NCBI RefSeq assembly: GCF_004023665.1
Contig: NZ_SAUF01000002.1
Span: forward strand, 806,001 to 870,000
DNA: 64,000 nt
From: Afifella aestuarii
Lineage (GTDB): Bacteria > Pseudomonadota > Alphaproteobacteria > Rhizobiales > Afifellaceae
Direction: 5' to 3'
The notes under the pieces were generated by a model, which was given only the letters and a program-made list of their open reading frames with translations, did not search any database and was not told where the DNA came from. This document shows positions 41,842-64,000 of this stretch, in pieces. Position 1 is the first letter of the stretch. The number at the start of each line of letters is the position of its first letter. Position numbers and translations under genes: made by a program.

Positions 41842-41857
41842 CGTGGGAGGAGGGGCC

Positions 41858-42325
41858 ATGCAGAACCATTTTTACGACGATTTGCGGGGGTCGCAGGGGG
41901 CGTTCGGGCCATATCGGCGCGAAGCCGGGCGCGCCCCCGCTGGGAGCCCCGCCGCCGGACATGCCGCCGCCGGATGTGCCATCGTCAGGGATCGGGAGAC
42001 GGATGCGGAGAGTTCCGTCTGCCGCTTTGCCGAAGCGGCGCTCGGCGCGGTCTTTCGGGTCGGGCACCATGACCTGCGCAAGGCCGGACGGGGCGTTGCG
42101 CGGGTGGCGCAGACGCGGCAGGCGGCGATGTATCTCGTCCATGTCGGCTCCGGCCTGACGCTGACCAAGGTCGGCGCGCATTTCGGCCGCGACCGCACCA
42201 CCGTAGCCCATGGCTGCCGGATGATCGAGGAACGGCGCGACGAGCCCGTCTTCGACCAGGTGTTGGAAAACCTCGAATTCGCGCTGAGGCGCTGGATGGA
42301 GGTTTTCGGCGAGGATGCGAGATGA
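41858..42325 (+). CDS. DnaA C-terminal-like helix-turn-helix protein
   Basis: A 155-residue protein. Residues 83-140 match the DNA-binding domain IV of the replication initiator DnaA (KVGAHFGRDRTTVAHGCRMIE, close to the DnaA signature), but the AAA+ domain is absent. The first 50 residues are low complexity. Such stand-alone domains occur in Hyphomicrobiales and could bind DnaA boxes or other sites to regulate replication or transcription. The ATG has a strong ribosome binding site. It shares an ATGA overlap with the DUF6456 gene. Confidence 0.9.
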   Translation: MQNHFYDDLRGSQGAFGPYRREAGRAPAGSPAAGHAAAGCAIVRDRETDAESSVCRFAEAALGAVFRVGHHDLRKAGRGVARVAQTRQAAMYLVHVGSGLTLTKVGAHFGRDRTTVAHGCRMIEERRDEPVFDQVLENLEFALRRWMEVFGEDAR

Positions 42326-43140
42326 GCCGCGGGAAGAGGCGCGGCGGGGCGCTCGAAAGCCTGATCGAGATGCTGCTGGTCCATGCCGATGCGCGGCTCG
42401 TGGAGGCGGATGCGGCGACCTTCTCTTGCGAGGGTGTGGCGGGGCGGCGGCGCGAGATCCCGGCCGCCCTCGTCAAGAAGCTTCTGGCGGGGGGCCTCCT
42501 CTGCGAGGCCGGAGAGAGGGGGCTTGTCGCGAGCGCGGAGGCCGCGGCATGGCTTCGGCGCATGAAAGCCGGCGAGCCCGCCTTTCTGGCGCAGCACAAA
42601 TGCCTGGAACGCCAGAAGGGCGGCTCACCCTCGGCGCCCGCTCCGCTCACCGATCTCGACGAGAGCCCGATCGGCCTCCTCGCCCGCAGAGGCGGCGAGG
42701 ATGGCGCGCCCTATCTCGGAGCCCCGCTGGTGGCAGCGGCGGAGCGGCTTCGCCGCGATTTCGAGCGCGCGAGCCTGCAGCCGCGCATCACCGCCAACTG
42801 GCAGGCCGACCTCAAGGCGCCGAAAGGCTCCCGTCAGCGGGGCGGCCAGGCGGATCTGACGGAGACGGCGATCGCCGCCCGCGCCCGCTTTCATGCCGCC
42901 ATGGACGCGGTCGGCCCAGAACTCGCGGGCGTCCTCGTCGATGTCGCCTGTTTCCTCAAAGGTCTGTCGAGCGTGGAGCGCGAACGCGGCTATCCGGCAC
43001 GATCGGCGAAGCTCGTCCTGAAACTCGCGCTGCAGGCGCTCGCCCGCCATTACGGCCTCGATGAGGAGGCCGAAGGCAAAGCGCATGTGGCGATGCGCCA
43101 TTGGGGCGCCGAGGGCTATCGGCCCACGATCAGCGAGTGA
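42322..43140 (+). CDS. DUF6456 domain-containing protein
   Basis: A 272-residue protein. Residues 50-90 suggest a winged-helix-like segment (PAALVKKLLAGGLLCEAGERGLVASAEAAAWL); the C-terminal 150 residues (LGAPLVAAAERLRRDFERA, ITANWQADL, ARARFHAAMDAVGPELAGVLVDVACFLKGL) are the DUF6456 domain. It is co-translated with the DnaA-C-like gene through ATGA. The function is unknown; the association with a DNA-binding protein suggests a regulatory complex. Confidence 0.9.
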   Translation: MSRGKRRGGALESLIEMLLVHADARLVEADAATFSCEGVAGRRREIPAALVKKLLAGGLLCEAGERGLVASAEAAAWLRRMKAGEPAFLAQHKCLERQKGGSPSAPAPLTDLDESPIGLLARRGGEDGAPYLGAPLVAAAERLRRDFERASLQPRITANWQADLKAPKGSRQRGGQADLTETAIAARARFHAAMDAVGPELAGVLVDVACFLKGLSSVERERGYPARSAKLVLKLALQALARHYGLDEEAEGKAHVAMRHWGAEGYRPTISE

Positions 43141-43181: not shown

Positions 43182-43601
43182 CTATTTCGCGAGCCGGCTC
43201 TCCGCGTCGCGGCGAATACGCTGCAGCATGGCGGAGAGGCCGTTTGAGCGCTGCGCCGTCAGATGTTCGCGCAGGCCCATTCGGGCGAAGACGGCTTCGG
43301 CATCGGTCTTCAGGATCTCTTCGGGCGTCGTGCGGGAATAGAGCGCAAGTACGATGGCGATGAGACCGCGCACGATATGGGCGTCGCTGTCGCCGCGGAA
43401 GACGAGGACCGCCTCGCCGTCCTTCACCGCGTCTTCGCTGACGAGCCAGACCTGGCTTGCGCAGCCGCGGACTTTCGTGGCCTCCGTGCGTTCCTCGTCC
43501 GGCATCTCCGGCAAGGCCCGTCCGAGCTCGATCACGTACCGGTAGCGATCCTCCCATTCGTCGAGGAGGGCGAAATCGTCGATGATGGATTCAATGCTCA
43601 T
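43182..43601 (-). CDS. sufE: Cysteine desulfuration protein SufE
   Basis: A 139-residue protein that accepts sulfur from the SufS desulfurase for Fe-S cluster assembly. The acceptor Cys47 sits in VRGCASQVW, and the downstream GLIAIVLALYSRTTPEEI and GLREHLTAQRSNGL motifs are typical. The ATG at 43601 starts the family homology (IESIIDDFALLDEWEDRYRYVIELG). It is convergent with the DUF6456 gene and single here; other suf genes are not in the window. Confidence 0.96.
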   Translation of the reverse strand: MSIESIIDDFALLDEWEDRYRYVIELGRALPEMPDEERTEATKVRGCASQVWLVSEDAVKDGEAVLVFRGDSDAHIVRGLIAIVLALYSRTTPEEILKTDAEAVFARMGLREHLTAQRSNGLSAMLQRIRRDAESRLAK

Positions 43602-43880
43602 GAAGGCCTGTCGCGTGCTTGCGTGTCCGCCGGGAGGTGCCCAGCCGTCGCCGGGCGTCTCAAAAAAGGTGGTGCAAGGCAAAATAGGCATATGAGCCCG
43701 GGGCACAAGCGCCGAGGGCCGGATGCGGCCTTGATGCGCGGCCCTGACAAGCTGGCCCTGACAAGCGGCTCTGTTTGCGCGAATGGGCCGCGTTAACGGC
43801 AATCCAAAACATGATTACCACTTTGTGAAGTTTTGGCTTATTGTTGAAGCTAAGTTTTACGTTTTGCTGGAGCGGAACCC

Positions 43881-55598: not shown

Positions 55599-56087
55599 TC
55601 AAACCTCAAATCCAAGAGTCTTGAGCCGGATGCGCATAGCGGCTGGAGAAACATCGAATTCACTGGCTAGTGCTTCGACGTCCGGCTTACCTCCACCGAC
55701 TCTAGCTCGAATCTGCGGTGCTGGCATTAAGATCTGAGCAGCAAGCTTATTTGCCTGCACCTCATGCAGCGGCGAAAGTGGCGCAGATGGATTGGCTGCA
55801 GCACCGCCATAAAGGCGGTCTAGATGCCCACGCTCGTCCAAAAGATCTCGATGGAGCAGATAATGGGCGAGTTCGTGTGCTGCTGTAAAACGGCGTCTCT
55901 GCGGACCCTCTGCTGCATTGACTGAAATTCTATAGCCTCCGTCACGGTACTTCTGGATGCAGCCCGACGCACCGTTTTCCATATCCTCCGTGACGAATCT
56001 CACTCCTAACCCCTCGATTATATCTTTCGGTTGAACCGGGGGATGAGCCATGTGGTGCTTTAGGATTTCAAGATCGTTCTCTCGCAT
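55599..56087 (-). CDS. ImmA/IrrE-type metallopeptidase
   Basis: A 162-residue protein. Zinc-binding HELAH is at residues 71-75 (FTAAHELAHYLLH), with the third ligand Glu in HEVQANKLAAQILMP (about residue 109). A C-terminal SEFDVSPAAMRIRLKTLG segment is a helix-turn-helix-like addition. In phage and mobile-element systems these proteases cleave repressors. The gene overlaps the upstream membrane-protein gene by 20 bases, so the two are translationally coupled. GC content here is clearly lower than in neighbours, pointing to acquisition. Confidence 0.93.
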   Translation of the reverse strand: MRENDLEILKHHMAHPPVQPKDIIEGLGVRFVTEDMENGASGCIQKYRDGGYRISVNAAEGPQRRRFTAAHELAHYLLHRDLLDERGHLDRLYGGAAANPSAPLSPLHEVQANKLAAQILMPAPQIRARVGGGKPDVEALASEFDVSPAAMRIRLKTLGFEV

Positions 56088-56511
56088 GTTCCTCCCTCCC
56101 CATCTCCGTTACCAACTCACCGATTTGCTCATCCGTCGCGTCCATCCCATCGAATAGCCCTTCGCTATCAATGAGCTCCCGTAATATTTTGGGATAAAGC
56201 TCCTCTCGCACAAGCTTCGGCGCGATCGATTCAATTTCTTCCGCAGCCCTTGATCTCACCTCGCTTCTCAAGAGCCAGAAACCTCCGACCGCGAGCAATA
56301 TCAGAAATGTCTGAAGAAGGGTGATTGAAAACGAAAGATTGGAGACATCGGGATCGCCGCTCGAATTCCAGATTAATAGAATCAAAAACGCCCAGAGGCC
56401 ATGTAAGCACCAACCGACGACACCCCAAGGTAAAGCTCTCCACTGGCCCGGCAATCGCCATCTTTTTACCCGTGCAGCTAGGCGGTTCCACCAAAAGGGG
56501 TCACTCTCCAT
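56068..56511 (-). CDS. Membrane protein cotranscribed with the ImmA/IrrE protease
   Basis: A 147-residue protein with two membrane helices (about residues 28-48, GVVGWCLHGLWAFLILLIW, and 60-82, ITLLQTFLILLAVGGFWLL) and a soluble C-terminal segment (EEIESIAPKLVREELYPKILRELIDSEGLFDGMDATDEQIGELV) that is acidic and helical. I do not recognise the family. It overlaps the protease gene by 20 bases. A membrane partner for a cytoplasmic protease suggests a signal-relay or abortive-type module, which is inference. Confidence 0.8.
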   Translation of the reverse strand: MESDPFWWNRLAARVKRWRLPGQWRALPWGVVGWCLHGLWAFLILLIWNSSGDPDVSNLSFSITLLQTFLILLAVGGFWLLRSEVRSRAAEEIESIAPKLVREELYPKILRELIDSEGLFDGMDATDEQIGELVTEMGREEHARERS

Positions 56512-57064: not shown

Positions 57065-57682
57065 TTGGCCGAGGAAGCTGACTGGGCCGCGATCCGGGCC
57101 GCCTATGAGGACGGCGCGGAGCCGCTGTCCGCCATCCGCCGGCGCTTTCATGTGAGTGCGGGGGCGATCGCCGAGCGCCGCCGGCGCGAGGGCTGGACGC
57201 CGCGCTCCAGCGATTTGGCTGCGATCAGCCGCCGACGCGCGGCGGAGCGTGAGGAGCGGGCGAAGGCCGAGAGCGCGGCCGGGTCCGCCGAGGGATCGAC
57301 GAAATCTGCGCCCCGCGGGCGCGGCAGTGCTGCGGCTTCGTCGGCGGGCGGGGCCGGTGCACGGGGGGATGGGCGCAAGGCAGGGGCGCGGGGCGCATCG
57401 CGCTCGAAAACGCCGGAACGGCCGCCGGGGAGGGTCGAACGGCTTCTGCGGCTCGTCGATGCCGAGCTCGGGCGGCTGGAAGCGCGGTTCTCCAGGGAGG
57501 GCGAGGTGGACGAAAAGGATGCGCGGCTTCTGTCGGAAGTGGCGCGCATGCTGGACCGGGCCGAGACGCTGGCGCGCAAGGGCGGCGAGAAAGCGCCGAG
57601 CGAGACGGACGATCAGGACTGGCTGCGCGCCGAGCTGTCGCGGCGGATCGTGTCGTTGAAGAAGCGCGCCGGGCAGCGGTGA
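57065..57682 (+). CDS. Terminase small-subunit-like protein (GTA/phage)
   Basis: A 205-residue protein. Residues 5-40 hold a helix-turn-helix (WAAIRAAYEDGAEPLSAIRRRF, GAIAERRRREGW) like phage small-terminase DNA recognition domains; the middle is an Ala/Gly/Arg/Ser-rich linker; the C-terminal helices (VERLLRLVDAELGRLEARFSR) probably oligomerise. The start is likely TTG at 57065, with GGAGGGG 4-5 bases upstream. It directly precedes the large terminase gene, as in gene transfer agent head clusters. Confidence 0.72.
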   Translation: MAEEADWAAIRAAYEDGAEPLSAIRRRFHVSAGAIAERRRREGWTPRSSDLAAISRRRAAEREERAKAESAAGSAEGSTKSAPRGRGSAAASSAGGAGARGDGRKAGARGASRSKTPERPPGRVERLLRLVDAELGRLEARFSREGEVDEKDARLLSEVARMLDRAETLARKGGEKAPSETDDQDWLRAELSRRIVSLKKRAGQR

Positions 57683-57749
57683 GGCCGCGCGGAGGCCCCT
57701 GAGCGTCGCGACAACACGAAAAGGTGGCCTGGCCGCCGGGGAGGCGGTG

Positions 57750-59084
57750 ATGCGCCCGAAATGCCCGCCGGGGCTGCGCGCCGAATGGACGGCGCTCGTC
57801 GGCGCCGAGGATCTCGATGCGGCGATGTCGGAGAGGAGTTCAGACGAGCTCGCCCGGCTTCTCGACTGGCGGCTTTGGGCCCGGCCCGACCAGCTGCCGC
57901 CCGAGGGCGACTGGACGGTCTGGCTCTATCTCGGCGGCCGCGGCGCCGGCAAGACGCGCGCCGGGGCGGAATGGGTAAAAGGGCTGGCGCTCGGTCAGCG
58001 CCCGTTTGCGCGAGAGCCGCTGGAGCGCATCGCGCTCGTCGGCGAGACGCTCGCCGATGTGCGCGACGTGATGGTGGAGGGGCCGTCGGGGCTTTTGGGC
58101 CTGCACCGGCCGAGCGAACGGCCGAGCTTTTCGACGACGCGGCGCAGGCTCTTGTGGCCGAACGGGGCGCAGGCGCTGATGTTTTCCTCGCAGGATCCCG
58201 AAAGCCTGCGCGGGCCGCAGTTTCACGCCGCCTGGTGCGACGAGCTCGCCAAATGGACCTATGCCGAGGCGACCTTCGACATGCTGCAATTCGGGCTCCG
58301 GCTCGGGCTGAACCCGCGCCAGCTCGTGACGACGACGCCGCGCAACGTGCCGCTCGTCAAACGGCTTCTGGCGGCGCCGCGCACGGCCGTCACCAAGGCG
58401 ACGACGGCGATGAACGCCGACAATCTGGCGCCGGGTTTTCTGGAGGCCGTCGTCGGGCGCTATCGCGGCACCAGGCTCGGGCGCCAGGAGCTCGATGCGG
58501 AGCTGATTTCCGACCGGCCGGATGCGCTCTTCAAGCGCGCCGATATCGAGGCGGGGCGGGTCGAGGCGGCGCCGGAGATGATCCGCGTGGTCGTCGCCGT
58601 CGATCCGCCGGCCTCGTCCGGGCGCGAGGCCGATGCCTGCGGGATCGTGGCGGCCGGGCGCGGGGCGGACGGGTTCGGCTATGTGCTCGCCGACAAGACG
58701 GCGCAGGGGCTTTCGCCCGCCGGCTGGGCGGGGCGGGCCGTCGATCTCTTTCACGCGCTCTCCGCCGACCGGCTGGTGGCGGAGGCGAACCAGGGCGGCG
58801 ACATGGTGGCCGCCGTCATCCGCCAGGCCGATCCGGGCGTTGCCGTGCGCCTCGTTCATGCGAGCCGCGGCAAGGTGGTGCGCGCCGAGCCGGTTGCCGC
58901 CCTCTACGAGCAGGGGCGCATCCGCCATGTCGGCGCGCTGCCGGAGCTTGAAGACGAAATGGCCGATTTCGGCCTCGGCGGGCTGTCGTCGGGCCGCTCG
59001 CCGGACCGGGTCGACGCGCTCGTCTGGGCGCTGACCGATCTGATGCTGACCGGCGGCGGCGAGGCGCGGGTGCGGCGGATTTGA
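57750..59084 (+). CDS. Terminase large subunit (phage/GTA DNA packaging motor)
   Basis: A 444-residue ATPase-nuclease. The Walker A motif GGRGAGKTRAGAEW is at about residues 62-75, Walker B-like AWCDELAKW at about 165, and the C-terminal RNase H-fold nuclease has acidic residues in VVAVDPPASSGREADACGIV and DRVDALVWALTDLM. Full length and intact, it would cut and package DNA into heads. Start ATG at 57750 has a purine-rich site (GGGAGGCGG). The portal gene normally follows, but here qorRB intervenes. Confidence 0.95.
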   Translation: MRPKCPPGLRAEWTALVGAEDLDAAMSERSSDELARLLDWRLWARPDQLPPEGDWTVWLYLGGRGAGKTRAGAEWVKGLALGQRPFAREPLERIALVGETLADVRDVMVEGPSGLLGLHRPSERPSFSTTRRRLLWPNGAQALMFSSQDPESLRGPQFHAAWCDELAKWTYAEATFDMLQFGLRLGLNPRQLVTTTPRNVPLVKRLLAAPRTAVTKATTAMNADNLAPGFLEAVVGRYRGTRLGRQELDAELISDRPDALFKRADIEAGRVEAAPEMIRVVVAVDPPASSGREADACGIVAAGRGADGFGYVLADKTAQGLSPAGWAGRAVDLFHALSADRLVAEANQGGDMVAAVIRQADPGVAVRLVHASRGKVVRAEPVAALYEQGRIRHVGALPELEDEMADFGLGGLSSGRSPDRVDALVWALTDLMLTGGGEARVRRI

Positions 59085-59149
59085 GGGGGCGCGGAGGTTG
59101 CCCGCTGGGCCGATGAAGAAACTGCCGTCGTGAGTGGATCGACGTCCGC

Positions 59150-59463
59150 GCCCCCACCCGCCGCTCCTGGCGGAGCGTCGACCTCCCCACAAGGGGGAGG
59201 TGGGAGCGTGCGGCGCGGGCGTGCCGGGAAACGAGCTTCGAAGAGAGCGGAACGGAGCAAGAGTGGCGAAACTGGTCTGAAACAGAGTTGAGGTGAGGGC
59301 ACGGACTTTTCCCCTCCCCCTTGTGGGGAGGGGTTAGGGGTGGGGGTCTGGGAAGACGACCGACATTGCGATCTGACGGATCCTCAGCGACCCCCACCCG
59401 GCGCTCCTGGCGGAGCGCCGACCTCCCCACAAGGGGGAGGTGGGAGCGTGCCGCGCGGCCGTG
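59150..59463. repeat. Two direct copies of a REP-like palindromic element 240 bases apart
   Basis: Copies at 59150-59223 and 59390-59463 are almost identical over about 70 bases (CCCCCACCCG, then CGGAGCG, then ACCTCCCCACAAGGGGGAGG, then TGGGAGCGTG). A related inverted element with CCCCTCCCCC-TTGT-GGGGAGGGG lies between them at 59311-59335. It occupies the 382-base gap between the terminase and qorR genes; no gene is supported in it. Confidence 0.9.
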
Positions 59464-59466
59464 TTG

Positions 59467-59877
59467 TCAGGCCGCCTCGGCCATTTTCTCGCGCGCTTCG
59501 ACGACGGCGGCGAAGTTGGTTTCGGCCCAGTCGATGAGGGTCAGAAGGGGGCCGGCGAGGCTTTTGCCGAGGGGGGTGAGCGAATAGGTGACCTGCGGCG
59601 GCACGGTCGGCTGCACGTCGCGGTCGATGAAGCCGTCGGATTGCAGCCGGCGCAACGTCTGGGTCAGCATGCGCTTGGAGATGTCCGGGACGGCGCGGGC
59701 GAGCGCGCTGAAGCGTTTCGGGCCGCCGGCGAGCGCCGCCAGGATGAGGATCGACCAGCGGTCGCCGATATGGTCGAGGAGGTTGCGCACCGGGCAGCGC
59801 GTCGCGTCGAAATCGAATTGCATCCAGCTTTCGAATTTTTCACCGAGCGCGCGGTGCGGCTCCAGCTCTTGCGCCAT
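59467..59877 (-). CDS. qorR: HxlR family redox-type transcriptional regulator, QorR-like
   Basis: A 136-residue winged helix-turn-helix regulator ([24 protein letters not shown], with the conserved Cys followed by Pro; [19 protein letters not shown] recognition part). HxlR proteins use the N-terminal Cys as redox or quinone sensor. I chose the ATG at 59877 because GGAGGT lies 5 bases upstream. It is divergent from a quinone oxidoreductase gene, exactly the QorR-QorB (YtfH-YtfG) layout, and a palindrome sits between them. Confidence 0.9.
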
Positions 59878-59947
59878 CTCGACCTCCATAGGGGGCTTGT
59901 CGGTAACCTGGTGACGGGAAAGTGCCGTCTTCTCTGGCGGATATACG

Positions 59948-59962
59948 GTCTCTAAATGAGAC
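59948..59962. promoter_or_regulatory. Candidate HxlR operator between qorR and qorB
   Basis: A perfect dyad, GTCTC-TAAAT-GAGAC, sits in the 115-base divergent region, 31 bases before the qorB start. The symmetry and position suit binding by the dimeric HxlR protein. Confidence 0.5.
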
Positions 59963-59992
59963 TATGTCAAGACAAGAGACCGGAGAATTCCG

Positions 59993-60862
59993 ATGAGCAC
60001 CAATCCACGTTATGCCGTCACCGGCGCGAGCGGCCAGCTCGGCCGTCTCGTCATTGCAGCCCTCGTCCGCCGCGTCGGCGCCGAGGCGGTTGTCGCGATC
60101 GTGCGCGATCCCGCGAAGTCCGCAGGGCTTTTCCCTGAGGGCGTCACGATCCGTGAAGGCGATTACGAGCGCCCGGAGACGCTCGATGCCGCCTTTGCCG
60201 GTGTGGAGCGGCTGTTGCTGATTTCCTCAAACGCCGTCGGACGCCGCGCGAGCCAGCACCGCAATGTCGTGGAGGCGGCAAAGCGCGCCGGTGTCGAGCG
60301 CATCGCCTATACGAGCATCCTGCACGCCGACCGCTCGAGCCTCGGGCTGGCGGAGGAGCATCGCGACACCGAAGCGGCGCTGGCCGCAAGCGGCCTTGCG
60401 GTCACGCTGCTGCGCAACGGCTGGTACACGGAGAATTACGCCGGCTCGATCCCGCCGGCGCTGGAGCACGGCGCCCTGATGGGGAGCGCCGATGGCGGTC
60501 GGATCGCAAGTGCTGCCCGCGCCGATTATGCGGAAGCGGCGGCTGCCGCGCTGGTCGATGACACCGAGCCGCGCCAAGTTCACGAACTCGCCGGCGACGA
60601 GGCCTATACGCTCACCGAATTTGCCGCCGAAATCTCGCGCCAGGCGGGCAAGGCGGTTGCCTATGCCGACATGCCCGAGGCGGAGTATCGCGAAGCGCTC
60701 AAGAGCGCCGGCCTGCCGGAAGGCGTGGCGGCGATGCTCGCCGATTCCGATGCCGGCGCCGCCAAGGGCGATCTTTTCGACGATGGCCATGAACTGTCCC
60801 GGCTGATCGGCCGGCCGACGACGCCTTTCGCGGCAACGATCGAGGCGGCTCTGAAGGGCTGA
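59993..60862 (+). CDS. qorB: NAD(P)H:quinone oxidoreductase, NmrA/SDR type, QorB-like
   Basis: A 289-residue atypical SDR with the N-terminal Rossmann motif VTGASGQLGRL, then REGDYERPETLDAAFAGVERLLLISS, SILHADRSSLGLAEEH and LRNGWYTENYAGSI, all matching the QorB/YtfG quinone reductase family. It reduces quinones with NADPH. A Shine-Dalgarno site (CGGAGAA) lies 7 bases upstream of the ATG. It is driven from a shared promoter with the HxlR gene and lies between GTA terminase and portal genes, where metabolic genes are not expected. Confidence 0.93.
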   Translation: MSTNPRYAVTGASGQLGRLVIAALVRRVGAEAVVAIVRDPAKSAGLFPEGVTIREGDYERPETLDAAFAGVERLLLISSNAVGRRASQHRNVVEAAKRAGVERIAYTSILHADRSSLGLAEEHRDTEAALAASGLAVTLLRNGWYTENYAGSIPPALEHGALMGSADGGRIASAARADYAEAAAAALVDDTEPRQVHELAGDEAYTLTEFAAEISRQAGKAVAYADMPEAEYREALKSAGLPEGVAAMLADSDAGAAKGDLFDDGHELSRLIGRPTTPFAATIEAALKG

Positions 60863-60904
60863 TCCGGCGGGATCTCCCTGTTTGGGCAAGTCCTCCCGCT
60901 TTTG

Positions 60905-60965
60905 CCCCTCACCCGGCCGGTCAACCGGCCCCCCCTCTCCCCGGCGGGGAGAGGACGGGTGCGGG
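60905..60965. repeat. Intergenic palindromic repeat (REP-like), different type
   Basis: Two adjacent dyads, CCGG-CCGGTCAACCGG-CC and CCTCTCCCC-GGC-GGGGAGAGG (60934-60954), stand in the gap before the portal gene. It is a common alphaproteobacterial intergenic palindrome. Together with the elements at 59150-59463 it brackets qorRB. Confidence 0.75.
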
Positions 60966-61024
60966 TTCAAGCGCCGGGAGTGCCCGCGCGTCTCGAAAAC
61001 GCCGCCTGAACAAGGGAGACACGC

Positions 61025-62176
61025 ATGCGCTGGTGGAGACAAGCGCCGGAGGCGAAAGCCTCGCGCACGGGACCGCTGATCGCCTTTGCACGCACCGGCG
61101 CGCCGGTGTGGACGCCGCGCCATTACGCGGCGCTCGCCCGGCGCGGCTATATGGAAAATGCCATCGTCTACCGCGCCGTGCGGCTGATTTCCGAGGCGGC
61201 GGCCTCCGTGCCGCTGCTTCTTTATGAGGGCGCGCGGGAGCTCGCCGAGCATCCGCTTCTGGCGCTTCTCGCCCGCCCCAATCCGCGCCAGGCCGGGGCG
61301 GAGCTGTTCGAGGCGGCCTATGGCCATCTCCTGACCGCCGGCAATGCCTATCTGGAGGCGGTGACGGGCTCAGACGGTGAGATCCGTGAAATCTATGCGC
61401 TGCGGCCCGACCGGATGAAAGTGATCGCCGGGCCCGAGGGCTGGGCGGAGGCGTATGAATATACGGTCGCCGGGCGCAGCCTGCGCTTTCAGATGCCGGA
61501 GGAGGGGCTGTCGGCGATCCTGCATCTGACGCTCTTTCATCCGCTCAACGATTATTACGGCTTCGCCCCGCTCGAAGCGGCACAGAAGGCGCTCGACCTC
61601 CACAACGAGGCGTCGGCCTGGAACAAGGCGCTTCTGGAGAATGCCGCACGACCTTCCGGTGCGCTCGTCTATCAGGGGCCGGAAGGGGCGAACCTGTCGG
61701 AAGACCAGTTCACCCGTCTCAAAGGCGAGCTCACAGAGAATTTCGAGGGCGCGGCCAATGCCGGACGGCCTCTGCTGTTGGAGGGCGGGCTCTCCTGGCA
61801 GGCGATGAGCCTGTCGCCGAGGGACATGGATTTTCTGGAGGCGAAGAACGCCGCGGCGCGTGAGATCGCGCTCGCCTTCGGCGTGCCGCCGATGCTTTTG
61901 GGCATTCCGGGCGACAACACCTATTCCAATTACCAGGAGGCGAACCGGGCGCTGTGGCGGCAGACGGTCTTGCCACTGATCGGGCGCATGACGGGTGCGC
62001 TCTCCAATTGGCTGGCGCCGTCTTTCGGCGAGCGTCTGCGCCTTGCCTATGACGCCGATCAGATCGATGCGCTCGCCGCCGACCGGGCGGAGCGCTGGAA
62101 GCGCTTGTCCGAGGCGAGCTTTTTGAGCGACGACGAAAAGCGCGAGGCGCTGGGTTACGGGCCGCTCGAGGCGTGA
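61025..62176 (+). CDS. Phage/GTA portal protein (HK97 family)
   Basis: A 383-residue portal protein that forms the dodecameric DNA entry ring. Typical segments are VYRAVRLISEAAASVPLLLYEG, AYGHLLTAGNAYLEAV, LTLFHPLNDYYGFAPLEAAQKALDLHNEASAWNKALLENAARPSG split by short gaps, and AFGVPPMLLGIPGDNTYSNYQEANRALWRQTVLPL. The length is normal and the gene appears intact. In GTA clusters the protease and capsid genes should follow, but the next gene is an unrelated transporter on the opposite strand. Confidence 0.95.
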   Translation: MRWWRQAPEAKASRTGPLIAFARTGAPVWTPRHYAALARRGYMENAIVYRAVRLISEAAASVPLLLYEGARELAEHPLLALLARPNPRQAGAELFEAAYGHLLTAGNAYLEAVTGSDGEIREIYALRPDRMKVIAGPEGWAEAYEYTVAGRSLRFQMPEEGLSAILHLTLFHPLNDYYGFAPLEAAQKALDLHNEASAWNKALLENAARPSGALVYQGPEGANLSEDQFTRLKGELTENFEGAANAGRPLLLEGGLSWQAMSLSPRDMDFLEAKNAAAREIALAFGVPPMLLGIPGDNTYSNYQEANRALWRQTVLPLIGRMTGALSNWLAPSFGERLRLAYDADQIDALAADRAERWKRLSEASFLSDDEKREALGYGPLEA

Positions 62177-62182
62177 CGGTTG

Positions 62183-63022
62183 TCAGGCCTTCATCAGGGC
62201 GAGGCCGCAGGCGATGCAGGCGGCCGAGATCCAGCGCCAGCGGCTGACGGGTTCGCGCAGGACGAAGGCGGCGATGAGCGCGGCAAAGAGGATGCTCGAT
62301 TCGCGCAGTGCGGCGACGAGCGCGATCGGCGCCTGGGTGAACGCCCAGACCGCGATCCAATAAGAGCCGAGCGACATCGCCCCGGCGGCGACGCCGCTTT
62401 TCCAGGCGGGCCGGAGGCCGACGAAGGCGGCGCGGCCATGCCGGAGGGCGATGAAGGCCGTGAGGAGAGCGGTATCGCCGATGACCATCCACAGGACGAA
62501 GCCGGACGCTGTGCCGGCGACGCGCGCGCCGAGCCCGTCGAGAAGCGTGTAGCTTGCGGTGAAGCCGGCCGTGCCGAGGGCGAAGAAGAGGGCATGCCCG
62601 TCCATGCGGCCGGAGGTGGAGCCCTTCGCCGCCATCAGGAGAATCCCGGCCGAGATGGCGCCGATGGCGACCAGAGCGGACGGCGCAAAGGTGGCATCGA
62701 GAAACAGGACGGAGATGACCGTGACGAAGATCGGCGCGGCGCCGCGGGCGAGCGGATAGGCCTGGCTGAGATCGGCGCGCGCATAGGCTTCGATGAGAAA
62801 GAGCTTGTAGCCCGCATGAAGGGCGGCCGCAGCCACGATCATCGGCACGGCGGCAGCCGCCGGCCGGTCGACGAAGGGCAGCGCGACAGCGGCGATCGCC
62901 GCCTGCGCGATGGCGAGGAGCAGGATCGTGGAGACACGGTCGAGCCCGACCTTCACCACGGAATTCCATCCGGCATGGAGAAGGGCGGCGAGGATGACCG
63001 CGGCGAAGACGTGATTGTCCAT
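62183..63022 (-). CDS. EamA/DMT family transporter
   Basis: A 279-residue ten-helix membrane protein with two EamA repeats (AALLHAGWNSVVKVGLDR; ARADLSQAYPLARGAAPIFVTVI; LGSYWIAVWAFTQAPIALVAALRESSILFAALIAAFVLREP). It is probably a small-metabolite exporter. It is convergent with the portal gene, with only 6 bases between stops, and divergent from a LysR gene at 63161, its likely regulator. Confidence 0.93.
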   Translation of the reverse strand: MDNHVFAAVILAALLHAGWNSVVKVGLDRVSTILLLAIAQAAIAAVALPFVDRPAAAAVPMIVAAAALHAGYKLFLIEAYARADLSQAYPLARGAAPIFVTVISVLFLDATFAPSALVAIGAISAGILLMAAKGSTSGRMDGHALFFALGTAGFTASYTLLDGLGARVAGTASGFVLWMVIGDTALLTAFIALRHGRAAFVGLRPAWKSGVAAGAMSLGSYWIAVWAFTQAPIALVAALRESSILFAALIAAFVLREPVSRWRWISAACIACGLALMKA

Positions 63023-63160: not shown

Positions 63161-64000
63161 ATGAAGCGCGGCGCTCTTCCGCTCAATGCCCTGCGCGCCT
63201 TCGAGGCGACGATGCGGCACGGCCAGATGCGGCTTGCCGCCGACGAGCTCGGCGTGACGCATGGCGCTGTCAGCCGCCAGGTGCGGCTTTTGGAGGAGAT
63301 CCTGCAGGTTCCGCTGTTCGAGGGGCCGCGCAACAAGCTGATGCCGACGCAGACGGCGCTGGAGCTCGAGCCGGCCCTGACGGAAGCCTTCGACGGCATC
63401 GAGGTGGCGGTCGCCCGCGCCATGCAGCGTGAGAGCCGGTTTCTCGACGTGTCGTGTACGGGGACGCTCGCTATGCGCTGGCTGATCCCGCGGCTCGTCG
63501 ATTTCCAGACGGCGCATCCGAAGATCGAGGTGCGGCTGACCGGCGAGTACGGGCCGGTGGATTTCTCCCGCCATCGTTTCGACGTGGCGATCCGCGTCGG
63601 CCGCGCGCCCTGGGGCGATGCGGAGGTGACGGAGCTGTTTGCCGAGGCGGCCGGTCCGGTGGTGAGTCCGAAATGTGCCGCGAGCGTCGATCTTGATGGG
63701 CCGGAGATGCTTCACGCGCTGCCGGCGCTGCATACCAAGACGCGGCCGGCGGCCTGGGCGGACTGGTGCCGGGGACAGGATTTGCCACCGCCGGCGGGCG
63801 GCCGTGTCTTCGAGCATTTTTATTTCCTGCTCGAAGCCGCGACGGCCGGGCTCGGCGTGGCGATCGCGCCGGAAGTGCTGGTGCGCGACGATGTGGCGGC
63901 GGGGCGGCTCTTGGCGCCCTTCGGCTTCGCCCCGACGGGGCAGGCCTATGTCGCACTGAGGCCGCGCCGACCGAACCGCGACGCGCAGCTCTTCATCGCA
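63161..64000 (+). CDS. LysR family regulator, GcvA-like, truncated by the window edge
   Basis: The first 280 codons of a LysR gene; the frame is open at the window end. The helix-turn-helix (LNALRAFEATMRHGQMRLAA, recognition helix in THGAVSRQVRLLE) and the effector domain (WLIPRLVDFQTAHPKIEVRL, FDVAIRVGRAPWG) are of the GcvA/AmpR-like type, which usually ends near residue 295-300, so little is missing. It is divergent from the EamA exporter across about 140 bases and probably controls it. Confidence 0.94.
   Translation, partial: MKRGALPLNALRAFEATMRHGQMRLAADELGVTHGAVSRQVRLLEEILQVPLFEGPRNKLMPTQTALELEPALTEAFDGIEVAVARAMQRESRFLDVSCTGTLAMRWLIPRLVDFQTAHPKIEVRLTGEYGPVDFSRHRFDVAIRVGRAPWGDAEVTELFAEAAGPVVSPKCAASVDLDGPEMLHALPALHTKTRPAAWADWCRGQDLPPPAGGRVFEHFYFLLEAATAGLGVAIAPEVLVRDDVAAGRLLAPFGFAPTGQAYVALRPRRPNRDAQLFIA

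Follow-up and report, generated by a model that had tools for sequence, protein, structure and literature searches.

A predicted complete RcGTA-type gene transfer agent cluster in Afifella aestuarii with two host gene pairs inserted among its head genes

Self-contained transcription units that lie between structural genes are known in phages as morons. The RcGTA cluster of Rhodobacter capsulatus (Rhodogtaviriformidae) is co-transcribed from one promoter (PMC9765227), and polar effects of inserted genes could therefore matter. In Caulobacter crescentus, gtaQS lie between the terminase and portal genes, and three 150-bp GC-rich repeats (terGTA) are located 3′ of the large-terminase gene, where GafZ lets some polymerase pass (PMC11150451). 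The CcGTA cluster (gtaT...gtaB) also contains an antisense non-structural gene, CCNA_02873 (PMC9632790), whose number adjoins that of the capsid gene, CCNA_02872. Despite terGTA, gtaQS and this antisense gene, GTA particles are produced in C. crescentus. The rule used to assemble GTA training sets specifies a colinear head-tail cluster with at least nine homologues that are no more than 5 kb apart (PMC6821227).

The window examined here is a stretch of 64,000 nucleotides from A. aestuarii (genome G000). An RcGTA-type cluster begins at position 57065 and continues past the window edge, with the protease, the capsid and g6–g15 all within 12 kb of that edge; a split gafA homologue (GafY/GafZ-type) was found 14 kb upstream of the cluster, inside the window. 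The features of the locus, in window numbering continued past 64,000, were as follows.

41843–42325, + strand: GafY-like gene, first half of the split gafA; DnaA C-terminal-type helix-turn-helix (PF08299, E 8.4e-12); 4-bp overlap with the next gene
42322–43140, + strand: GafZ/GafA-C-like gene (DUF6456; PF20057, E 2.5e-46; one match in the genome), putative GTA activator/anti-terminator
43182–43802, − strand: sufE, after the GafZ-like gene
57065–57682, + strand: g1, small terminase-like (PHROG 1206, small terminase, E 1.5e-4; no match in a Pfam profile search)
57747–59084, + strand: g2, terminase large subunit (PF03237 and PF17289, Terminase_6N/6C)
59085–59466, no strand: trio of GC-rich BIME-like palindromic repeats (+,−,+), candidate terminator, from reading of the sequence; 14 copies genome-wide; RNA fold z −7.6
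59467–59889, − strand: insert 1, HxlR-type regulator, qorR/ytfH-like (PF01638, E 8.7e-30; PDB 1yyv, E 2e-28)
59890–59992, no strand: divergent promoter region with the palindrome GTCTC-TAAAT-GAGAC at 59948–59962, kept in G001 and G003
59993–60862, + strand: insert 1, qorB/ytfG-like NmrA-family NAD(P)H:quinone oxidoreductase (PF05368, PF13460; PDB 2zcu, E. coli YtfG, E 1e-96)
61025–62176, + strand: g3, portal (PF04860, Phage_portal, E 7.5e-93)
62183–63022, − strand: insert 2, EamA-family transporter (PF00892, E 2.4e-12)
63146–64042, + strand: insert 2, LysR-family regulator (PF03466, PF00126), crossing the window edge at 64000
64076–64288: g3.5, assigned by its place in the g-order (no match in Pfam and PHROG searches)
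64468–65094: g4, protease (PF04586)
65118–66443: g5, capsid (PF05065)
66542–66565: terminator-like hairpin between the g5 capsid gene and g6
66589–75573: g6–g15 (PF05135, PF05521, PF11367, PF06199, PF11836, PF09343, PF09931, PF00877, PF13547; g11 is a PHROG tape measure)
75625–76443: endolysin/chitinase-like gene, after g15

The whole set g1–g15 was present in G000 with a largest gap of 1.97 kb, g2–g15 were all open reading frames, and the cluster conforms to the colinearity and spacing rule of PMC6821227. Signature domains were GTA_TIM (PF13547) in g15 (E 8.5e-136, the Pfam scan covering the first 1105 of 1296 aa), GTA-gp10 (PF11836, E 1.1e-30) and Rcc01698_C (PF23666, E 1.2e-16). Capsid, portal and terminase each had one match in the genome, the flanking genes being searched by profile in part. 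The profile HMMs were seeded with the proteins of G000 itself, named by Pfam/PHROG, and the one built from g1 matched 89 of 123 loci. A sequence-only reading of the window had described the small-terminase-like, terminase large and portal genes as intact in appearance and in canonical order (57065–62176); this was confirmed, the three genes being open and in order. Its remark that no protease or capsid gene follows the portal holds inside the window only. Its suggestion that a GTA cluster had been interrupted and shortened is refuted, as the missing protease, capsid and tail genes follow directly beyond 64 kb and the remainder of the cluster is there, open and of low dN/dS; a truncated cluster was rejected on these grounds. 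Judged from its genes, the RcGTA-type cluster is complete and conserved; it carries inserted host pairs and is not shortened.

The cluster shares with RcGTA the order g1–g15, the signature domains, the apparent single copy and a gafA-type activator in the genome, a likeness drawn from Pfam/PHROG gene names. It differs from RcGTA in having two host gene pairs among the head genes and in its gafA, which is divided between two genes that overlap, an arrangement described for Hyphomicrobiales (PMC9638019). The genes carrying PF08299 and PF20057 (41843–43140), with sufE adjoining, form a predicted GafY plus GafZ activator in the synteny described there for Hyphomicrobiales gafA, and a GafY/GafZ-type pair is likewise present in CcGTA. 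The presence of gafA is no proof of a working GTA, since the congener G002 possesses a DUF6456 gene and had no portal or terminase match.

The first host pair, qorR-qorB (1,396 bp, 59467–60862), splits terminase large from portal, as had been recognized in the sequence-only reading (about 1.4 kb); its products were HxlR and NmrA-type by Pfam and YtfG by PDB. In E. coli, ytfG (qorB) is paired with ytfH, and QorR and YodB are HxlR-type quinone-sensing regulators. Similarly, the gene for the NmrA-type quinone reductase of G000 is divergent from that of an HxlR-type regulator, the translation of which has one cysteine only, within an RCPV motif near the N terminus, but unlike ytfG/ytfH the pair sits inside a GTA cluster. 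Loose GTCTC-N5-GAGAC sites numbered 7, 4, 5 and 1 in G000, G001, G003 and G004, with control counts of 6, 7, 5 and 1, and an HxlR operator shared by qorB and an SDR gene at g8–g9 was rejected because the counts were at control level. The g8–g9 SDR insert was lost in G000, which might point to a mild cost of carrying inserts.

The second host pair (62183–64042) comprises eamA on the − strand and lysR on the + strand, transcribed divergently; it splits portal from g3.5 and lies 6 bp and 33 bp from its neighbours. This insert was missed in the sequence-only reading. Among the 123 clusters compared, both pairs were confined to G000, G001 (A. marina, of the same genus as the organism of the window) and G003, and eamA had no match in G002 or G004. 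Both inserts were absent from G004, in which the terminase-portal site holds gene-free palindromic repeats and portal and g3.5 abut. On the sequence evidence, self-contained, divergently transcribed host pairs entered the cluster in the lineage of G000, G001 and G003. The cassettes would serve the host (predicted quinone/oxidative-stress response and export) and would not be GTA parts. The first pair resembles gtaQS in position, between large terminase and portal, and both pairs resemble phage morons as self-contained transcription units amid structural genes; they differ from morons in that the host element is domesticated and not packaged whole, and in that they encode ordinary metabolic and regulatory functions of the host.

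Selection was assessed by Nei-Gojobori dN/dS for 16 genes over four pairs, values in which start-codon uncertainty is a source of noise. All 16 genes were below 0.42 except g7 against G004 (0.84), the other genes ranging from 0.13 to 0.42 in that comparison. Among G000, G001 and G003, dN/dS was 0.06–0.08 for terminase large (0.08 for G000 against both others), 0.06 for portal and 0.06–0.14 for capsid; values were higher for g4 (0.34–0.39 against G001), g14 (0.37 against G003) and g1 (0.22–0.33); between G000 and the fourth congener, G004, terminase large and portal reached 0.29 and 0.24, respectively. These values indicate that terminase, portal and the other structural genes are under purifying selection, the check that had been proposed for terminase and portal. 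A decaying GTA or prophage, with inserts as the first sign of loss, might be suspected from the lack of a portal or terminase match in G002, from the split G029 portal (two fragments with about 13 kb of other genes between them, one fragment containing a stop) and from the portals in pieces in G018 and G055. For the cluster studied here we consider this unlikely: g2–g15 are all open with dN/dS well below 1, and 110 of 117 clusters keep a near-full portal (match spanning over 330 profile positions within a single frame) even though 83 of 118 clusters have at least one coding insert, the latter count being on the high side as some small + strand ‘inserts’ (g7–g8, g3–g4) may be unrecognized GTA genes.

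The three BIME-like GC-rich units 3′ of the terminase gene (about 59160–59445) alternate +,−,+ and are 106–134 bp apart; a different palindrome lies at about 60905–60955, between qorB and portal. The palindromic repeats reported as flanking qorR-qorB are thus present on both sides, but the two sides differ and the BIME-like units are not insert-specific. The exact 14-mer CTCCCCACAAGGGG occurs in 14 copies in the G000 genome, within eight gaps between called genes; all 14 adjoin a gene 3′ end and 10 lie between convergent genes. The repeats are BIME-like elements, and their role as insertion scars was rejected because they are generic in the genome and on one side only of the insert. Movement of BIME/REP-bounded cassettes by recombination between copies, with landing in an array at the terminase 3′ end, would make the repeats the agents of insertion; the gene-free array at the same junction in G004, seven copies beside qorR in G001 and a second divergent enzyme/LysR pair in G000 (C2:785.9–788.4 kb) with the same repeats on both sides agree with this. 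Such a mechanism nevertheless seems improbable to us, as the BIME-like repeat borders qorR-qorB on one side and is not found at EamA/LysR, the G004 unit reads differently, and a position next to gene 3′ ends, as for all 14 copies, is what any divergent pair would show.

As in CcGTA, the GC-rich repeats of G000 hold inverted repeats and are directly 3′ of the large-terminase gene, in three units, and they are a candidate terminator. Whereas terGTA consists of direct repeats, some 150 bp each, in tandem, the units of G000 switch orientation from one to the next and are members of a family found throughout the genome; G004 has direct units 264–323 bp apart. By analogy with terGTA they may form an internal terminator, and none of 100 shuffles of 59085–59466 folded as well; the units are generic (seven other gaps), so that a GTA role does not follow. 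Only one of 71 short g2–g3 gaps was marked by a strict hairpin-plus-T terminator scan. Folding was surveyed at nine junctions (gaps of 80–600 bp free of coding inserts, a random sample of roughly half the L-numbered loci, 12 shuffles each), with sample sizes down to n=9 for g10–g11 and n=1 for g13–g14.

Inserts in related clusters were counted as genes of at least 80 aa called by our own codon-score script; the counts are affected by where contigs end (n per junction 46–103). L080, L122 and L146 were left out (portal DNA identical to G001, G057 and G017), as were G029, G039 and six inserts matching GTA HMMs from the event, family, 83/118 and spacing counts. The class-level set took in 19 of the 24 other genomes that had a match and was used without gene calling. 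Relatives are not always separated at the terminase-portal junction, and the refuting condition set in the sequence-only reading does not hold: spacing between HMM ends was below 400 bp in 25 of the 41 order-level clusters with both genes, and nine of the 41 had coding inserts there, three of these being G000, G001 and G003. A total of 53 insert events was obtained, 41 at head and 12 at tail junctions, with inserts sharing a family at a junction or genome chained into one event, by which g5–g6 collapses to two events although 41 of 85 clusters have an insert there. The head excess was strong per junction (p 1e-7) but absent per intergenic base (p 0.41), and a head-junction hot spot beyond spacing was therefore rejected; inserts followed intergenic room (Spearman 0.64, p 0.008).

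Selected cargo, with GTA control or redox state sensed via HxlR coupling quinone-stress and export functions to GTA production, would account for the presence of two neat regulator-effector pairs in a single cluster, for the qorR-qorB palindrome kept in three species and for a long-lived insert family, whose 39 members in 38 clusters are trypsin-type genes lying antisense between capsid and g6. The inserted genes are also under purifying selection (dN/dS 0.09–0.24 for qorB, 0.09–0.12 for eamA and 0.08–0.13 for lysR), but this says just that the host benefits from them. What is inserted varies from genus to genus, with no dominant category (the commonest Pfam families matching three each of 128 representatives scanned, from 130 families), and insert families were near evenly oriented (71 + and 59 −). 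Common inserts, the lack of a per-base head excess and mixed orientation favour tolerance, and selected cargo is in our judgement doubtful. The other suggestion of the sequence-only reading, cargo inserted in a cluster continuing beyond the window, was right as to extra genes and continuation, whereas a cargo function is not supported by inserts that differ between genomes, have both orientations and follow intergenic room.

The explanation that we regard as probable is a complete GTA in which host pairs were inserted and tolerated where there was intergenic room, with anti-termination carrying transcription through. A GafZ-type processive anti-terminator would let RNA polymerase read across terminators and foreign transcription units, and we infer that such read-through keeps inserts from disabling the cluster; that anti-termination makes the cluster tolerant is a proposed step. 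A GTA cluster is not known to be packaged as a whole, so that added length would not be purged, and together with anti-termination this would allow inserts wherever intergenic space exists, mostly between head genes, and rarely or not at all where genes are closely packed, as at most tail junctions. More tentatively, structured or terminator-like elements may punctuate transcription of GTA clusters 3′ of the terminase and capsid genes, and the GafZ-type anti-termination needed to pass them would, as a side effect, make the operon a safe harbour where self-regulated host cassettes settle among the head genes and are carried for long periods without silencing the GTA.

Detection rules assume fairly compact clusters, and inserts of 2–20 kb can thus make a complete GTA look broken. 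To the earlier reader this complete GTA looked as if it might be broken. As inserts are common and near-neutral, they are less surprising than had been supposed. If anti-termination allows inserts, their pattern would be a cheap comparative sign of GTAs still transcribed end to end. Afifella offers natural comparisons with and without inserts at three junctions, and A. marina has a DSM strain number.

The genes named in the sequence-only reading were confirmed by translation and by Pfam and PHROG profile matches, and its observation that terminase and portal genes are parted by qorR-qorB was itself mostly right. Of the two explanations offered, insertion into a continuing cluster was correct and shortening of an interrupted cluster was not, as the protease, the capsid and g6 to g15 lie past the window edge. 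The cluster also holds two inserts, rather than the single one recognized, an EamA/LysR pair being the second. The features are as follows (window numbering continued past 64,000).

59467-60862: insert 1, divergent HxlR/NmrA pair (qorR-qorB), between terminase (g2) and portal (g3)
62183-64042: insert 2, divergent EamA/LysR pair, between portal and g3.5
64076-64288: g3.5, past the window edge
64468-65094: g4 protease, past the window edge
65118-66443: g5 capsid, past the window edge
66542-66565 (L002:11043-11066): intrinsic-terminator-like hairpin and T run, right after the capsid, kept in the congeners G001 and G003
ending at 75573: g6 to g15; every frame from g3.5 onward is open
75625-76443: endolysin/chitinase-like gene, after g15

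GTA-signature domains were found with Pfam in the cluster genes beyond the window edge, and capsid, portal and terminase each had one match in the window's genome (G000). The enzyme of insert 1 matched Escherichia coli YtfG in the PDB (E 1e-96) and its regulator matched HxlR-type structures, whilst insert 2 is separated by 6 bp from the stop codon of the portal gene and by 33 bp from the beginning of g3.5.

The window genome, in which the window spans C2:806001-870000, belongs to the same genus as Afifella marina DSM 2698 (G001), the portals being 97 % identical, and both inserts were shared by G000, G001 and G003. The congener G004 (portal 77 % identical) had neither insert; its portal directly abutted g3.5, and its terminase-portal gap was a 1.15 kb palindromic repeat array without called genes, comprising four direct units 264-323 bp apart, with similar arrays at g5-g6 and g8-g9. 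Among 31 genomes, the nearest matches outside G000, G001 and G003 to qorB (60 % identity, G020) and to EamA (46 %, G027) were on contigs other than that of the GTA cluster. An antisense short-chain dehydrogenase gene at g8-g9 was common to G001, G003 and G004 and absent from G000, where a short, different-looking sequence fills a gap of 151 bp (L002:12422-12574) and no close copy of the gene was found elsewhere in the genome. Since presence differs among these four genomes, inserts are gained and lost within a genus.

Nei-Gojobori dN/dS ratios for G000 against G003 or G001 were 0.08 for terminase, 0.06 for portal, 0.06-0.14 for capsid and 0.06 for part of g15, with 0.08-0.24 for the inserted genes; higher values were obtained for g4 (0.34-0.39 against G001) and g14 (0.37 against G003). 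Against G004, most genes gave 0.13-0.42 (terminase 0.29, portal 0.24, g15 0.35) and g7 gave 0.84.

The frequency of inserts was surveyed in 123 clusters, comprising 44 from the window's genome and its relatives (genus to order) and 79 titled loci, mostly of Hyphomicrobiales, some titled to class or phylum level only; the titled set was chosen by likeness to the window's portal, and many of its members are Xanthobacteraceae-type organisms. L080, L122 and L146, whose portal DNA duplicates that of G001, G057 and G017, were removed ahead of counting, as were G029, G039 and six inserts matching GTA HMMs. At least one coding insert was present in 83 of 118 clusters overall and in 19 of 42 in the relatives' genome sample without the titled loci.

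Clusters with an insert at each junction
Head: g2-g3 22/103; g3-g3.5 21/91; g3.5-g4 6/90; g4-g5 24/103; g5-g6 41/85
Tail: g7-g8 5/77; g8-g9 7/77; g11-g12 5/66
Tail, single cases: g9-g10 1/70; g10.1-g11 1/65; g14-g15 1/46
None: g1-g2 0/82; g6-g7 0/79; g10-g10.1 0/65; g12-g13 0/64; g13-g14 0/49

Shared descent matters for these counts, because one trypsin-type family at g5-g6 alone accounts for 39 genes in 38 clusters, all antisense (PF00089, E 2.7e-24 in the one member scanned; for example L104:16291-17148, between capsid and g6). After collapsing, 41 insert events remained at head junctions and 12 at tail junctions, an excess at the head per junction (p 1e-7) and none per intergenic base (p 0.41). 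Insert families were found in both orientations (71 plus, 59 minus) and were mixed in function, with 166 Pfam families over 128 representatives, each in three or fewer. In a thinner class-level sample of 19 genomes, with gaps measured without gene calling, head gaps longer than 1 kb were found at g2-g3 in one genome, g3-g4 in five, g4-g5 in four and g5-g6 in two; such gaps also occurred at tail junctions (e.g. G159, G070 and G064), so the tail, too, is open to them in some genomes. Inserts are common, and tolerance appears to explain them better than selection. A 19.5-kb terminase-portal insert in G040 (C13:586534-606024) carries molybdopterin oxidoreductase, MobA/MobL-type and serine-recombinase-type genes, and the terminase and portal frames are still open.

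Gaps in GTA clusters were already known, since PMC6821227 permits 5 kb between adjacent GTA genes on observed distances; PMC11409702 mentions that related phages carry inserted genes. In the passages searched, no statement on widespread host-gene inserts in RcGTA-type clusters was found, and no priority is claimed. The interest of the finding rests on a proposed link to anti-termination. In Caulobacter crescentus, terGTA consists of three 150-bp GC-rich repeats with inverted repeats just 3' of gtaT (large terminase) and is a strong terminator; with GafZ, part of the polymerase passes it, and the response at the unrelated rrnB T1 terminator is similar (PMC11150451). That paper places gtaQS between gtaT and the portal gene, and PMC9632790 describes CCNA_02873 as an antisense gene within the locus. 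The window's putative activator pair comprises a DnaA_C-type gene and, overlapping its end, a DUF6456 gene, followed by sufE, an order matching the gafA arrangement reported for Hyphomicrobiales in PMC9638019. On the strength of terGTA and GafZ and this matching pair, the Afifella cluster would be read by an anti-terminated polymerase, which may render harmless inserts having their own promoters and terminators. The congener G002 has a DUF6456 gafA-like gene and no terminase or portal match, which reflects either a lost GTA whose regulator has remained or a gap in the assembly.

Intergenic gaps of relatives were surveyed for RNA folds against shuffles. Values of z below -3 were obtained in 19/36 gaps at g5-g6, 14/53 at g2-g3, 5/14 at g8-g9, 6/56 at g4-g5, 3/53 at g3.5-g4, 2/26 at g7-g8, 1/9 at g10-g11, 0/1 at g13-g14 and 0/18 at g1-g2. 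A strict hairpin-plus-T scan marked eight of 36 short g5-g6 gaps, including those of G000, G001 and G003, against none of 36 shuffled; the other short gaps gave 8/66 (g3.5-g4), 7/72 (g4-g5) and only 1/71 (g2-g3). As candidate punctuation, the post-capsid structure stands out and post-terminase structure occurs in a quarter of the gaps; the structure at g8-g9 falls outside this scheme.

In G000, the region 3' of the terminase gene is far more stably folded than its shuffled versions (z -7.6). The exact 14-mer CTCCCCACAAGGGG occurs in the G000 genome as 14 copies in eight gaps (two gaps with alternating triplets, two with pairs and four with one copy each), every copy adjoining a gene 3' end and 10 of the 14 lying between convergent genes. 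The family is BIME-like, and its genome-wide spread at gene 3' ends ruled out an insertion scar. The terminase-qorR junction carries seven copies in G001 and two exact ones in G003. The terminase-qorR BIME-like repeats also lie on both sides of a divergent glyoxalase-type enzyme/LysR pair (L234:1929-4391; G000:C2:785.9-788.4 kb). Upstream of g1, on the minus strand (55599-56511), an ImmA/IrrE-type peptidase gene (PF06114) overlaps a small gene without a family match; the former could be phage-derived or regulatory.
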